Origin: an uncultured Clostridia bacterium
Lineage (GTDB): Bacteria > Bacillota > Clostridia > UMGS1883
Reading direction: 5' to 3'
Length of the DNA: 64,000 nucleotides
Assembly: GCA_947589005.1 (NCBI GenBank)
Contig: CANPZO010000011.1
Location: 1 to 64,000 of the forward strand
Shown one piece after another: positions 109-5,143 of this stretch (within the stretch, counting starts at the first letter, position 1; every line of letters starts with the position of its first letter). The notes beneath the pieces were generated by a model. It did no database searches. It was not told the origin of the DNA and saw nothing but the letters and a program-made list of their open reading frames with translations. The position numbers were made by a program, and so were the translations under genes.

Positions 109-2460
109 TCACTTCTTTATCGTTGTCCCAACCTTTTTCGCGGAGATAAGGCACGAGATGAGGTTGTTCTTTACCTTTCCGCTCAGTATCTCCACCTCGG
201 AAACGCCGTTTTCCACGGCCTCCACGATGTTGCTGAGCTTTGGTATCATTCCGCCGCCGACAAAACCGTTATTTATGAGCAGCCTTGCCCGCTCGGCGGT
301 GAGGGTTTCGAGGACGGTCTTTTCGTTGTCCTTGTCTATGAAGATGCCGTTCACGTCGGTGATGAACACCAGCTTGTCGGCCCGAAGCTCCCTCGCCACG
401 GCGGTGGCCGCGTCGTCGGCGTTCACGTTCAGAGGCTCGCCTTCGGGACCGGAGCTCACCGGCGAAATGACCGCCACGTATCCGGCGTCCAGCAGTTGGT
501 TTATGATGCGGGCGTCCACGGAGGTTATCTCCCCCACAAAGCCTATATCCGCCCCGTCCACAGTCTTGCGGCGGGCGGTAATGGCGCCCCCGTCCCGGCC
601 GCTGATGCCGACGGCTTTGACGCCGCACCCAGATATGGCGCCCACCAGCTTTTTGTTGACGCCGCCGCTGAGTACCATTTCCACCGTGCGTATCTCGTCG
701 GGGCCGGTGACGCGATAGCCCTTCTCGAACCGGCTCTCCGTGCCGAGGCTCTTAAGCATCGCGCTTATCTCCTTGCCGCCCCCGTGGACGACGGTCACCC
801 TTGCGCCCACCATGGAAAGCAGGGAAATGTCCTCCATGAGCGAGCGGGTCAGGGCCTCGTCCTCCATTACGCTGCCCCCCAGCTTTATGACGACGTTGCG
901 TCCGTAAAGCCGGTGCAGGGCCGGCAGTATGTCCTGAAAGCCCTTTATCTTCTCGGTGGCGTCTATCCCTCGGGCCACGTCGTACTCGTCAAGGAATTTC
1001 TTCGTATACTCCACGTCGCTGGGGCAGTCGATATAGCGCACTCCCCGCTTTTGGCGGGTCTCGTCGCCCTTGCCAGTAACAAGGACCACGGTGGGCTCAC
1101 GGCAGTCCATTATGGCGTGGCGTATGGCCTCGCCCCGGTCGTCGATTATTTCATACTCCCCTCCGGCGGCGGCCACATGGCCCGCTATCTCGGCGGATAT
1201 ACGGCCAATGGGCTCCTCTCCGGCGTCCTCCTCGGTGATGTAGACCTTTTTGGAGTACCGCCCGGCAATAACGCCCAAATCCCTGCGGCGGTCGAAAGCC
1301 TTCCCTCCCGGGCAGCCGAAAACCGCCGCGATGGAACGGTCAGGATATTCCTTGCGGACGGAGGAAAAGAGATTTTCAAAGCTCAGCTTGTTGTGCGCGT
1401 AGTCCACAATGACCGTCACGGTCTTGTCCGCGTTGGCGTAGACCTCCATACGGCCTTTGCTTCGGGCCTTCATAAGGCCGGTGAGCATGAAGCGGCTGTC
1501 TATGCCCAGCGCCATGGTGATGCCGATGGCGGCGAGGGCGTTTTCCACATTGAACAGCCCCGGTATGGTGAGGGTGAACTCCATGTCAAAATCCTTCGTC
1601 CTCACCATAAAGACGGTGTCGCTTTCGTTTTTATGCACGCCGTAGGCGAACACGTCCGCGTCGGCGCGCTTTTGAGAAAAGGTGATGACCCTGCCGGCGG
1701 CCTTCGCCGCAAGAGCCACCTCCTCGGCCCGGTCACAGTCCATATTTATGACGGCGGTTTTGCAGCTTTCGAACAGCCTGAGCTTGGAGCGGAAATAATC
1801 CTCGAAGTCCGGGTGCTCTATGGGGCTGATGTGATCCAAACCTATGTTAAGGAAGCAGCCCACCGTAAAGCCGACGCCCAGCACACGGTCGTACTTCAGC
1901 GCCTGACTGGAGACCTCCATGGTCAGGTGGTCTATGCCGCTTTTGACGGCGTTGTCAAAATGGCGGTGAAGGTCGAAGGGCTCGGGGGTGGTAAGGTGGC
2001 TCTCAAAGCTCTCCACCCCGTCATAGGTGTCGATGGAGGAGATTATGGCGGTCTCCTTTTTGCCCTGCGCCCTCATGGCCTCGTCCAGAATATACTTGAC
2101 AAAATAGGCGGTGGTGCTCTTTCCCTTTGTGCCGGTTATACCCACAAGGCTGAGCTTGTCCCACGCGTGGCCGTAAAAGAAGTCCGCCGTCAGCGCCATG
2201 GCCCGGCGCACGTCGTCCACGATGACGCAGTCACCGTCGCAGTCCTGCCTTTTTTCAGCAATATATGCGACGGCCCCCTTTGACATGGCGTCCGCGAGAT
2301 ATTCGGCTTTAAAATGGGCGCCCTTGCACAGGAAAAGGGTGTTGGGTCGGACGTCGCCGGAGTTGCAGGATATATATTCTATCCGTCTTTCAGGCTCGCC
2401 GAACACTCGTGTCTTTATGCCGTTATTTTCAAAAAGTACGGTAAAATCCCTCAGTGTCAT
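109..2460 (-). CDS. MurE-like ligase fused to an acetylglutamate-kinase-like domain
   Basis: This 783-residue protein joins two complete enzymes. Residues 1 to about 500 are a Mur ligase of the MurE type, with the ATP loop GTKGKST at 110-116, EVSSQAL at 182-188, a candidate carbamylated lysine in FRSKL, DYAHN near 353 and GKGDE near 463. Residues from about 510 are an amino-acid kinase of the acetylglutamate-kinase family, with KLGGS at 526-530, HGGGKEI, a VNADDAA block and GGGMIPK. The MurE motif that reads DNPR in diaminopimelate-adding enzymes is EDAG here (411-414), so neither meso-DAP nor canonical lysine specificity is indicated. The gene overlaps the upstream racemase by an ATGA, implying translational coupling. 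No other arginine genes are nearby, which argues against ordinary arginine biosynthesis. The exact substrates are unknown. Confidence 0.85.
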   Translation of the reverse strand: MTLRDFTVLFENNGIKTRVFGEPERRIEYISCNSGDVRPNTLFLCKGAHFKAEYLADAMSKGAVAYIAEKRQDCDGDCVIVDDVRRAMALTADFFYGHAWDKLSLVGITGTKGKSTTAYFVKYILDEAMRAQGKKETAIISSIDTYDGVESFESHLTTPEPFDLHRHFDNAVKSGIDHLTMEVSSQALKYDRVLGVGFTVGCFLNIGLDHISPIEHPDFEDYFRSKLRLFESCKTAVINMDCDRAEEVALAAKAAGRVITFSQKRADADVFAYGVHKNESDTVFMVRTKDFDMEFTLTIPGLFNVENALAAIGITMALGIDSRFMLTGLMKARSKGRMEVYANADKTVTVIVDYAHNKLSFENLFSSVRKEYPDRSIAAVFGCPGGKAFDRRRDLGVIAGRYSKKVYITEEDAGEEPIGRISAEIAGHVAAAGGEYEIIDDRGEAIRHAIMDCREPTVVLVTGKGDETRQKRGVRYIDCPSDVEYTKKFLDEYDVARGIDATEKIKGFQDILPALHRLYGRNVVIKLGGSVMEDEALTRSLMEDISLLSMVGARVTVVHGGGKEISAMLKSLGTESRFEKGYRVTGPDEIRTVEMVLSGGVNKKLVGAISGCGVKAVGISGRDGGAITARRKTVDGADIGFVGEITSVDARIINQLLDAGYVAVISPVSSGPEGEPLNVNADDAATAVARELRADKLVFITDVNGIFIDKDNEKTVLETLTAERARLLINNGFVGGGMIPKLSNIVEAVENGVSEVEILSGKVKNNLISCLISAKKVGTTIKK

Positions 2461-3167
2461 TTAACATCACCCTTCAATCTTCCGCCGCAGAGCGTGACGC
2501 AGCGTTCCGCCAACACCCTCATGGCGTCCACGTAATAGCTGTCCAGCTCATGATTGGCCCGGAACACGCTGAGCTCGGTACAGGCCAGCACCGCCGCGTC
2601 GCAGCCGTTCTTTTTGAGATAGTAGTCCACGGCGGCAAAATCCTCGCGGCTGCCCTTTTGTCCGGCCTTTATCTGGTCGTAGATAAGACTCATGACTATT
2701 TTCTGCCGCTTTTCGTCGGGGACAAAGGGCTCTATCCCGCGGCGGCGCAGAGCGTCGTGGTAAAGGCCGGCGGCAAGAGTCCCGTCGGTGGCGAGAATAC
2801 CCACGCGCCCGGCCTCGGGACGGGTGCGGAGAATGTATTCGGCGGTTTCCTCCACCATGTTTACGACGGGTATGTCAACGCTCTTTTCCACCGCCCAGAT
2901 GAAGCTGTGGCTGGTGTTGCAGGGTATGGCGATGATGTCCGCCCCGAAATCGCGGAGCTTCCTCGCGTCCGCGGCCAAAAGCCGCCCCAGCTCCTCGCCC
3001 CGACCCTCCCTTATGGCCGCAGTGCGGTCGGGCATGGAGGCGTGGCTGTAGAGCACTATGTCAATGTGGTCCTGATCTCTGGCGGCGTCGGTGAGGCCAA
3101 TTATCTCCCCGTACATGACCTGCGAGGCTTCGGGCCCCATGCCGCCGATAATTCCCAGTGTCAGCAT
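2457..3167 (-). CDS. Aspartate/glutamate racemase family protein
   Basis: A cofactor-independent amino-acid racemase of the Asp/Glu/hydantoin racemase superfamily, expected to interconvert L- and D-aspartate or glutamate by two cysteines. The N-terminus GIIGGMGPEA is the family signature. The two catalytic cysteines are seen in IPCNTSH (about residue 85) and LACTELS (about residue 195). An upstream in-frame TTG could add six residues, but the ATG at 3167 follows a purine-rich AAGTAGGG and was preferred. The gene starts 8 bases after the ATP-grasp stop and overlaps the MurE-kinase start by four bases. It probably supplies a D-amino acid to the neighbouring ligases. Substrate choice between Asp and Glu cannot be read from sequence alone. 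Confidence 0.85.
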   Translation of the reverse strand: MLTLGIIGGMGPEASQVMYGEIIGLTDAARDQDHIDIVLYSHASMPDRTAAIREGRGEELGRLLAADARKLRDFGADIIAIPCNTSHSFIWAVEKSVDIPVVNMVEETAEYILRTRPEAGRVGILATDGTLAAGLYHDALRRRGIEPFVPDEKRQKIVMSLIYDQIKAGQKGSREDFAAVDYYLKKNGCDAAVLACTELSVFRANHELDSYYVDAMRVLAERCVTLCGGRLKGDVK

Positions 3168-3174
3168 ACAAGCC

Positions 3175-4386
3175 CTACTTTCCAAGATATTTTTTGTATT
3201 TACGGAAATGAGAGGTGTGCTGCTTCAAAAGGCGCAGCAGCCGTCCGGGTTTGTTGTCGCCCTTGTAGAGCAGGGGGTTCACCACCCGTCCCTGACGTAT
3301 CAGCGACTTCATCCTCGTCTTATACTCGGCGGGCTTTATGTAATCCATGGCCACCTTTTCGGGCACCACCATCCAGAGGTTTTCCCTGTCGGCAAAAACG
3401 GTGTCACCCAGCTCCTGGCCCAGCACCCTGTCCCTGACCACATACTCGGCGATATTGTAGCCCGCGCCGGTAACGTAAAAATTGCTCCGTCCCTGGCGGA
3501 CGTTTATCTCAAAGACCTTGAACTTATTGTCGCGGCGGTCGTATTTTATGTCGAAGTTGGAGAAGCCCGTAAAGCCTATCTCCTCCAGCAGGCGGCGGAA
3601 TTTTTCCATCAGCTCACGGTCGCACTCGTTTATGATGACGGCGTGGTTGCCTATGCCGTAGGGGGTGTGCTCTTCCAGAAGCACATGGCCCAGACACATG
3701 AGCTTGACCCGTCCGTTTTTGTCGGAATAATTGGTGAGCACCCGCATATAGGTGTCGTCGCCGGGAATGAAGTCCTGCACAATGAGGTTGTCCTTATAGC
3801 CGCTGTTGTAAACGGCGGCCACGGTCCGGCGCAGCTCCTCGAGGGTGTCCAGCTTGAACACCTTTTTCTGTCCCTCGAAGGGGTGGGCAAAGTATTCCGG
3901 CCCGTTGCAGGGCTTGAGTATATACGGCGCCCCGAACTCCGGAGTCACCTCCATGGTGTTGGGCGTGCAGACGTAGGTGGCGGGGTACTCAATGCCGTGC
4001 TTGTCGCAGAGCTGATAGAACCGCTCCTTGTCCATGAGGCTGTCAAGCTGCTCCCCGCTGCCGTAAGGCGCTATTATGTTGTCCGCCAGCTTGTCCTTGT
4101 TTTCGGCGATAAGGCGAACATAGCCGTCGCCGCAGCCAATGAGCAGCACCGGCCTGGTCTGGGCCGCGGCGAACTCGTTCACCCTCCGCACAAAGACCGC
4201 CGGGTCGTCCATATCCGGCTCGGTGCGCTGGTCTATTATCCTGCTGTCGGCGCAGGGCGCGCCGGGCTTTTTGCCGATAGACGTCGATTTCATGCCGTAA
4301 GCCTCGTGAAAGGCCCTGGCCACACTGTACACGTTTATGTCGTTGCCCAGCAGCAGTGTCACAAAGCTTTGTTCCTTAAATTCCAT
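3175..4386 (-). CDS. ATP-grasp carboxylate-amine ligase, D-aspartate-ligase-like
   Basis: A 403-residue ATP-grasp enzyme resembling the D-aspartate ligase group that adds beta-linked D-Asp to peptidoglycan precursors. Visible features are the nucleotide-binding block YILKPCNG, the acidic stretch LIVQDFIPGDD, and the metal-binding end FEINVRQGRSN. An in-frame TTG at 4413 would add nine residues, but the ATG at 4386 has a TTGGGGGAT ribosome site at good spacing. It is the second gene of a tight four-gene operon with a racemase and a MurE-like ligase. That context supports ligation of a racemised acidic amino acid to a cell-wall or peptide acceptor. The function is inferred from family and context, not demonstrated. 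Confidence 0.75.
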   Translation of the reverse strand: MEFKEQSFVTLLLGNDINVYSVARAFHEAYGMKSTSIGKKPGAPCADSRIIDQRTEPDMDDPAVFVRRVNEFAAAQTRPVLLIGCGDGYVRLIAENKDKLADNIIAPYGSGEQLDSLMDKERFYQLCDKHGIEYPATYVCTPNTMEVTPEFGAPYILKPCNGPEYFAHPFEGQKKVFKLDTLEELRRTVAAVYNSGYKDNLIVQDFIPGDDTYMRVLTNYSDKNGRVKLMCLGHVLLEEHTPYGIGNHAVIINECDRELMEKFRRLLEEIGFTGFSNFDIKYDRRDNKFKVFEINVRQGRSNFYVTGAGYNIAEYVVRDRVLGQELGDTVFADRENLWMVVPEKVAMDYIKPAEYKTRMKSLIRQGRVVNPLLYKGDNKPGRLLRLLKQHTSHFRKYKKYLGK

Positions 4387-4414
4387 TGCGTCATCCCCCA
4401 AGTTAAATTTCAAA

Positions 4415-5143
4415 TCAGTTGTCCTTCAAAAAGTCTCGCACGACAGCGTTTACACGGTCGGCGGCCTTGTCAAATACAAAATGGTTGCAGTTTTGCACTA
4501 TCCTCAGCTCGGCGTCCGGTATGGAGCCGGCGATGAGCCTTGTGTGGGCGGGCTTTATCATGTCGCGGCTGCCGGCCATGACAAGCACCGGCACCTTTAT
4601 GCTCTTAAGCGACGCGGCGTCTATATTCGGCTCGCGCACCATCAGGGACATGACCGAAAGCTTCCGCCGGGCGGCGCTTTCCCGCTGGGCCTTTTTGGCC
4701 AGCAGCTTAAAGCCGGCCTCGATGGGTATCTGGTATATCTCCTTCACGCCTCCGGGCGTAAGATTGCCGCCGGCGAGGACGGCCTTTTCTATCACGCCGT
4801 TTTTGTCGCCGAGCAGCATCTCCATGGCGGCGTTGGCGCCGTCGCTGAAGCCGACCACCGAGGCCCTCTTTATCCCGAGCGCCTCCAGAAGGGCGAAGCC
4901 GTCGGCGGCTATCTGGGCGATAGTGAGCTTTTTCCTGCCGAAGCTGGAACGCCCCTGTCCCCGGCTGTCCATAGCGATTAGGGTGAAGTCGCGGCTCCAG
5001 TCCTCAAACTGCTTTTTGTAGCAGGCGGCGCAGCTTTCGCCGTTGCCGTGGAGCAGCAGTACATACTTTTCTCCCCCGCCGTATATCTCAAAGTATATTT
5101 GGGCCGTGTCGATTTGGATGTACCCGGTCTTGGAAGGCTTCAT
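4415..5143 (-). CDS. Alpha/beta-fold hydrolase
   Basis: A 242-residue alpha/beta hydrolase without signal peptide, so probably cytoplasmic. The oxyanion region LLLHGNGES is near residue 30, the nucleophile elbow GFSDGA near 98, an acid in AGSRDMI near 195 and the histidine in NCNHF near 220. The triad looks intact. It heads the operon with the ATP-grasp ligase, racemase and MurE-kinase fusion and has its own sigma-A promoter. It could be an esterase, amidase or thioesterase that releases or trims a product of that pathway. The substrate is not predictable. Confidence 0.8.
   Translation of the reverse strand: MKPSKTGYIQIDTAQIYFEIYGGGEKYVLLLHGNGESCAACYKKQFEDWSRDFTLIAMDSRGQGRSSFGRKKLTIAQIAADGFALLEALGIKRASVVGFSDGANAAMEMLLGDKNGVIEKAVLAGGNLTPGGVKEIYQIPIEAGFKLLAKKAQRESAARRKLSVMSLMVREPNIDAASLKSIKVPVLVMAGSRDMIKPAHTRLIAGSIPDAELRIVQNCNHFVFDKAADRVNAVVRDFLKDN

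Follow-up and report, generated by a model that had tools for sequence, protein, structure and literature searches.

Why would a ligase of cell-wall synthesis be joined, in a single reading frame, to a complete kinase of amino acid biosynthesis? The question is raised by a 64,000-nucleotide stretch of DNA from an uncultured Clostridia bacterium (the window, by which we mean that whole stretch), which begins at the end of contig C11 and encodes a 783-residue fusion of a Mur ligase (MurE2) and an ArgB-type kinase, together with an ATP-grasp ligase and an aspartate racemase-like protein. We propose, with moderate confidence in the explanation as a whole, that ligase, racemase and MurE2 form a module for a D-Asp-containing wall in growing cells, that a separate MurE specific for diaminopimelic acid (DAP) serves the spore cortex, and that the fused kinase is free of feedback control. 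Several features computed directly from the genomes carry this proposal: conservation of the module, loss of the DAP motif from MurE2, a tie between sporulation and a second MurE in a related family that lacks the fusion (f3), a single fusion event, an intact catalytic set in the kinase and loss of arginine-site residues from it.

The fusion itself is confirmed. As the preliminary description of this locus held, a Mur ligase is joined to a complete amino-acid kinase, and both domains pass curated models: MurE2 matches the murE model TIGR01085 at 290.9 bits (cut-off 257.3), and the kinase domain matches the argB model TIGR00761 at 228 bits (cut-off 151). The AlphaFold model is confident in both halves (mean predicted local distance difference test score, pLDDT, 86); the MurE half matches the solved MurE structures 2xja and 4c13, and the kinase half matches the N-acetylglutamate kinases (NAGKs) 2jj4 at 1.5 Å and 2bty at 2.2 Å. 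Dozens of other genomes encode fused homologues at full length, so the fusion is no assembly artefact. Literature searches for a MurE–ArgB fusion or for such an operon found nothing and, as far as they show, such a direct link between amino acid supply and wall synthesis is undescribed. MurE is also joined to a second enzyme in the MurE–MurF fusions (8f5d, NF008896), but there the partner is the next wall ligase, whereas here it is a kinase of amino acid biosynthesis.

Each half resembles a housekeeping enzyme, so the fusion could in principle be a simple housekeeping join of murE and argB, a reading that the preliminary description made depend on whether separate copies exist. Both do. A second, DAP-type murE (motif DNPRTEDP) lies on contig C4 of the window genome between genes that read, from their sequences, as a PASTA-type penicillin-binding protein-like gene and an mraY-like gene, and a separate argB adjoins argC on contig C33. 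A free ArgB is also present in 12 of the 13 Oscillospiraceae genomes that have the full fused frame, so the fused copy is not replacing it. In one genome (G501, locus L267), the fused domain is the only ArgB above the curated cut-off. The housekeeping join is nonetheless refuted in the window genome, and we regard it as extremely improbable in general.

The motifs of MurE2 allow a prediction of what it adds. The P-loop (GTKGKS), TTPE, Lys226 (the carbamylated-lysine position by homology), GKGxE with its Glu and the motifs that bind the UDP-N-acetylmuramoyl (UDP-MurNAc) dipeptide are all kept. In DAP-type MurE, the Arg of a DNPR motif binds the extra, second carboxylate of DAP; S. aureus MurE is without that Arg, and an Asp and a Glu in its acidic pocket hold the L-Lys (PMC3829189). 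At this position in our alignment, the second MurE keeps DNPR, whereas MurE2 of the window has EDAG and most of the relatives' loci have EDAG, EDPG or EDSG; L. curvatus MurE has DDPG and the L-Lys ligase of E. faecalis has DDPA. Because MurE2 lacks the DAP-binding Arg and shares the acidic motif and the GKGxE Glu with L-Lys types, it is predicted to add L-Lys or L-Orn, and the sequence does not tell which. The L-lysine model NF010628 scores it at 339 bits, below the cut-off of 536.

The two other enzymes of the module point to D-aspartate. The racemase matches TIGR00035 (210 bits, cut-off 93) and the Asp_Glu_race domain, conserves both catalytic cysteines, and is 35% identical to the L. curvatus racemase and 42% identical to that of Subdoligranulum variabile; we predict that it is a RacD-type aspartate racemase. 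For the ATP-grasp protein, the Pfam/NCBIfam match is weak, a PDB sequence search with its profile returned no match, and a fold search placed it no more closely than in the general ATP-grasp superfamily, where PylC and an amino acid ligase ranked highest. Comparison with lactobacillus and S. variabile members is more specific: the protein is 36–40% identical over about 95% of its length to carboxylate–amine ligases of L. crispatus, L. curvatus and L. fermentum, and 46% identical to the S. variabile ligase, which makes it a putative D-aspartate ligase of the AslA type. The L. curvatus ligase gene adjoins an amino acid racemase gene. In S. variabile, the order is ligase, racemase and a gene named by sequence as asparagine synthase-like (asnB-like), and this is the arrangement described for D-Asp cross-bridges, in which RacD makes D-Asp, AslA attaches beta-activated D-Asp to the stem L-Lys and AsnH amidates the D-Asp (PMC4155827). 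The full-length homology to the lactobacillus ligases and the racemase neighbour thus support the link drawn earlier between a racemase plus a D-Asp-ligase-like enzyme and cross-bridge synthesis. The locus is like the AslA/RacD pathway of Lactococcus lactis, Enterococcus faecium and lactobacilli in the family and length of its ligase, the adjoining Asp racemase and the presence of a Lys-type MurE in the cell; it is unlike that pathway in that the cluster itself encodes MurE2, that a DAP-type MurE coexists with it, and that its hosts belong to the Clostridia, many with the gene content of spore formers.

Conservation defines which genes belong together. We scanned genome contigs for relatives and kept 80 loci, mostly from gut Clostridia. 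Most of these, which include loci of Oscillospiraceae, Lachnospiraceae and other groups, combine ATP-grasp ligase, racemase and MurE2, and the flanking genes vary. The preliminary description had counted four tightly coupled genes, and the four open reading frames are indeed where it placed them, with neighbours overlapping by a few bases or sitting one base apart; the alpha/beta hydrolase, however, recurs at one relative locus only, the one closest to the window (L036), and we dropped it as a member. The conserved module is therefore the other three. An intact kinase domain is present in the window's genus, several Clostridia lineages and much of the Oscillospiraceae; the domain is a degraded remnant at 12 loci, mostly in Oscillospiraceae, and absent from the Lachnospiraceae loci and from family f3.

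Is the fused kinase still active, and is it regulated? When 62 fused and 37 free ArgB domains are placed in one tree, a branch with support 100 separates the fused from the free, and the MurE2 tree has four state changes, which we read as a single gain of the kinase followed by two degenerations and one deletion. These trees are quick searches, with some long branches flagged in both of them and in the contrast test below. The kinase was fused once. Seven catalytic positions that we checked are unchanged in 61–62 of the 62 fused domains. At the alignment columns that we take to be Tyr23, Gly287 and Glu281 (C. glutamicum/P. aeruginosa numbering), all 37 free ArgBs carry the three residues, whereas Tyr23 and Gly287 occur in none of the 62 fused domains and Glu281 in 21 of them; Tyr23 and Glu281 presumably belong to the arginine site. 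The fused domains hence lack arginine-site residues of an arginine-sensitive NAGK. That site sits between the N-helix and the C-lobe, and in C. glutamicum, G287D-type changes make the enzyme less sensitive to arginine inhibition and increase ornithine output (PMC10464499, PMC6962107). The fused domain is like the ArgBs of T. maritima (2bty) and Synechococcus (2jj4) in its whole fold, N-terminal helix and catalytic residues (40% identity), but unlike them in its junction to a Mur ligase and its altered arginine site. Retention of the catalytic set together with loss of the arginine-site residues suggests a kinase selected for activity yet freed from arginine, and we predict an NAGK whose feedback site has been dismantled.

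Extra ornithine, for a wall built with it, would be the simplest use of such an enzyme. The retention of the whole NAGK active site and the loss of arginine-site residues fit ornithine supply better than the earlier idea of a kinase that phosphorylates a wall peptide or some new carboxylate. We give a feedback-free ornithine supply for the wall an even chance. A different reading keeps the vegetative L-Lys to D-Asp wall and makes the kinase a structural or regulatory appendage that would help in oligomerisation or metabolite sensing. The catalytically dead remnants at 12 loci, which come from two lineages, and the function of MurE2 without any kinase in Lachnospiraceae and f3 speak for it. Against this, the intact proteins keep each catalytic position that we checked even though the domains are only 42–55% identical outside the window's genus, and loss of the arginine-site positions is the reverse of what an arginine sensor should show. 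On balance, we consider an appendage unlikely.

The division of labour between the two MurEs was approached in family f3, of which we sampled 150 genomes, 83 of them with MurE2; sporulation was marked by spoIVA alone, the second MurE was found with the DAP-MurE profile, and the family-level genomes are at least 90% complete, on which calls of absence depend. A second MurE is present in 37 of 38 spoIVA-positive but only 4 of 45 spoIVA-negative MurE2 genomes (Fisher p = 7e-18, kinship not corrected for). On the MurE2 tree, eight independent pairs differ in sporulation, and the second MurE agrees with the difference in about 7.3 and is opposite in none (median p = 0.016). The contrast also holds within genera: G344 has spores and two MurEs and its congener G107 has no spores and MurE2 only, and G407 and G435 form a further such pair. 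The exceptions are G422, which has spores and one MurE in a genome that is 90% complete, and G346, G362, G377 and G403, which have more than one MurE without spores; in G442 the second match is a duplicated MurE2, and this genome was counted as lacking a second MurE. In about 41 near-complete non-sporulating genomes, no MurE other than MurE2 was found. This pattern of gene loss suggests that MurE2 alone supports growth and that the DAP-MurE is lost with sporulation. In several f3 genomes (L323–L328), the DNPR-type second MurE is about 386–428 residues long, matches the profile from about position 92–104 and is without the N-terminal domain.

These genomes bear on two further readings. In the first, growing cells use both MurEs, so that their wall mixes DAP with Lys/Orn, and the link to sporulation is indirect. 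The position of the window genome's DAP-type murE among ordinary wall-synthesis genes on C4 speaks for a mixed wall, as do the two MurEs of G104, a genome of another family without spoIVA; absence of the second MurE from 41 of 45 non-sporulating MurE2 genomes, across about eight independent contrasts, makes it distinctly unlikely. In the second, the racemase, ATP-grasp and MurE-like enzymes would form a peptide or small-molecule pathway outside the wall, an outcome that the preliminary description also entertained. Such folds do make peptides elsewhere, and amino acid ligases and PylC are among the solved folds closest to the ATP-grasp protein. However, where MurE2 is the sole MurE it must make the wall precursor, and it keeps the substrate motifs; we dropped the small-peptide pathway, which is largely refuted for the MurE2 family and very improbable overall. 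A classical precedent for two walls is Lysinibacillus (Bacillus) sphaericus, in which Tipper and co-workers reportedly found an L-Lys to D-Asp vegetative wall and a meso-DAP spore cortex. The systems are alike in that a single spore former has MurEs of both types, that the DAP type is tied to sporulation, and in the D-Asp bridge; they are unlike in that L. sphaericus belongs to another class, that MurE2 here is of the streptococcal type and fused to ArgB in one clade, and that the MurE roles here are inferred.

MurE2 thus most likely builds a vegetative L-Lys/L-Orn to D-Asp wall while the DAP-MurE serves the cortex. In this scheme the racemase would make D-Asp, the ATP-grasp enzyme would add it to the side-chain amine of the basic residue and so give growing cells an A4-type wall (L-Lys/L-Orn to D-Asp), the second, DNPR-type MurE would supply the DAP precursor reserved for the spore cortex, and the arginine-insensitive kinase would keep ornithine flowing to the wall when arginine is plentiful. 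A vegetative wall with D-Asp on a basic residue is, in our judgement, quite probable. The choice of L-Orn over L-Lys, the side-chain position of D-Asp and the purpose of the kinase are what we infer beyond this, and the most specific version, in which a family of gut Clostridia has an L-Orn/D-Asp growing wall and a DAP cortex, and one clade fused its wall ligase to a feedback-free NAGK and so uncoupled wall ornithine from arginine control, is tentative, at somewhat less than even odds.

Several observations weigh against the scheme. The sporulation tie comes from f3, a family without the fusion; every tested genome of the window's genus carries spoIVA and both MurEs, which leaves no contrast there, and the vegetative and cortex roles are extrapolated to that genus. 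G104, as noted, has two MurEs without the sporulation mark. In many f3 loci, chiefly non-sporulating ones, no D-Asp ligase was found next to MurE2. Fused proteins and the unfused proteins of f3 share one specificity motif, which by itself does not point to ornithine. Within the fused clade the kinase has decayed twice and been deleted once, which makes it an accessory that is dispensable there. Literature searches found no wall analysis for any fusion-bearing species and no usable paper on what the walls of Intestinimonas and Oscillospiraceae contain, and some relatives may have been described as having meso-DAP.

The genes are listed in the table in minus-strand order, upstream to downstream. 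Elsewhere, the surroundings of the module differ by lineage. At Lachnospiraceae-type loci (L104, L105, L106, L111 and L112), a DNPR-type murE closely follows MurE2 and precedes genes that are priA-like and def-like by sequence. In part of the Oscillospiraceae (L064, L073, L090, L094, L096, L099 and others), a gene of about 355 codons that is alanine racemase-like by sequence only lies just upstream of the ATP-grasp ligase. Three loci (L116, L120 and L122) come from records that PLSDB lists as plasmids of S. variabile, C. aerofaciens and M. pectinilyticus; these contain genes for the wall and for housekeeping and may be mislabelled fragments of chromosomes. The MurE of L120 (Collinsella aerofaciens) is 40% identical to MurE2, has the motif EDPA and is encoded directly after an asnB-like gene.

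Table. Features of the locus, in window coordinates.
Feature	Position	Strand	Basis or remark
Alpha/beta hydrolase	4415..5143	(-)	Pfam/NCBIfam match; adjacent, not counted in the module
ATP-grasp ligase, putative D-aspartate ligase (AslA) type	3175..4413	(-)	Homology, fold, lactobacillus comparison
Aspartate racemase-like protein	2457..3185	(-)	Both catalytic cysteines (C89, C202 of the open reading frame)
MurE2–ArgB fusion, 783 aa	109..2460	(-)	Mur_ligase_M, Mur_ligase_C and AA_kinase in a single open reading frame
MurE2 ligase domain, residues 1–494 of the fusion	979..2460	(-)	Curated model and motifs
Diamino-acid specificity motif position, E411-D412-A413-G414	1219..1230	(-)	Alignment; DAP-type MurE has D-N-P-R there
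ArgB domain, residues 506–783 of the fusion	112..945	(-)	Catalytic set complete; arginine-site positions changed: A514, C770, K776

NOD1 reads DAP peptides. If growing cells lack DAP and spores contain it, host sensing would therefore differ between growth and sporulation in these bacteria. For most gut Oscillospiraceae and Lachnospiraceae, no wall chemistry is on record (PMC11382707), and the pattern of gene loss described here makes the reason for the retention of DAP in the cortex testable across many lineages.

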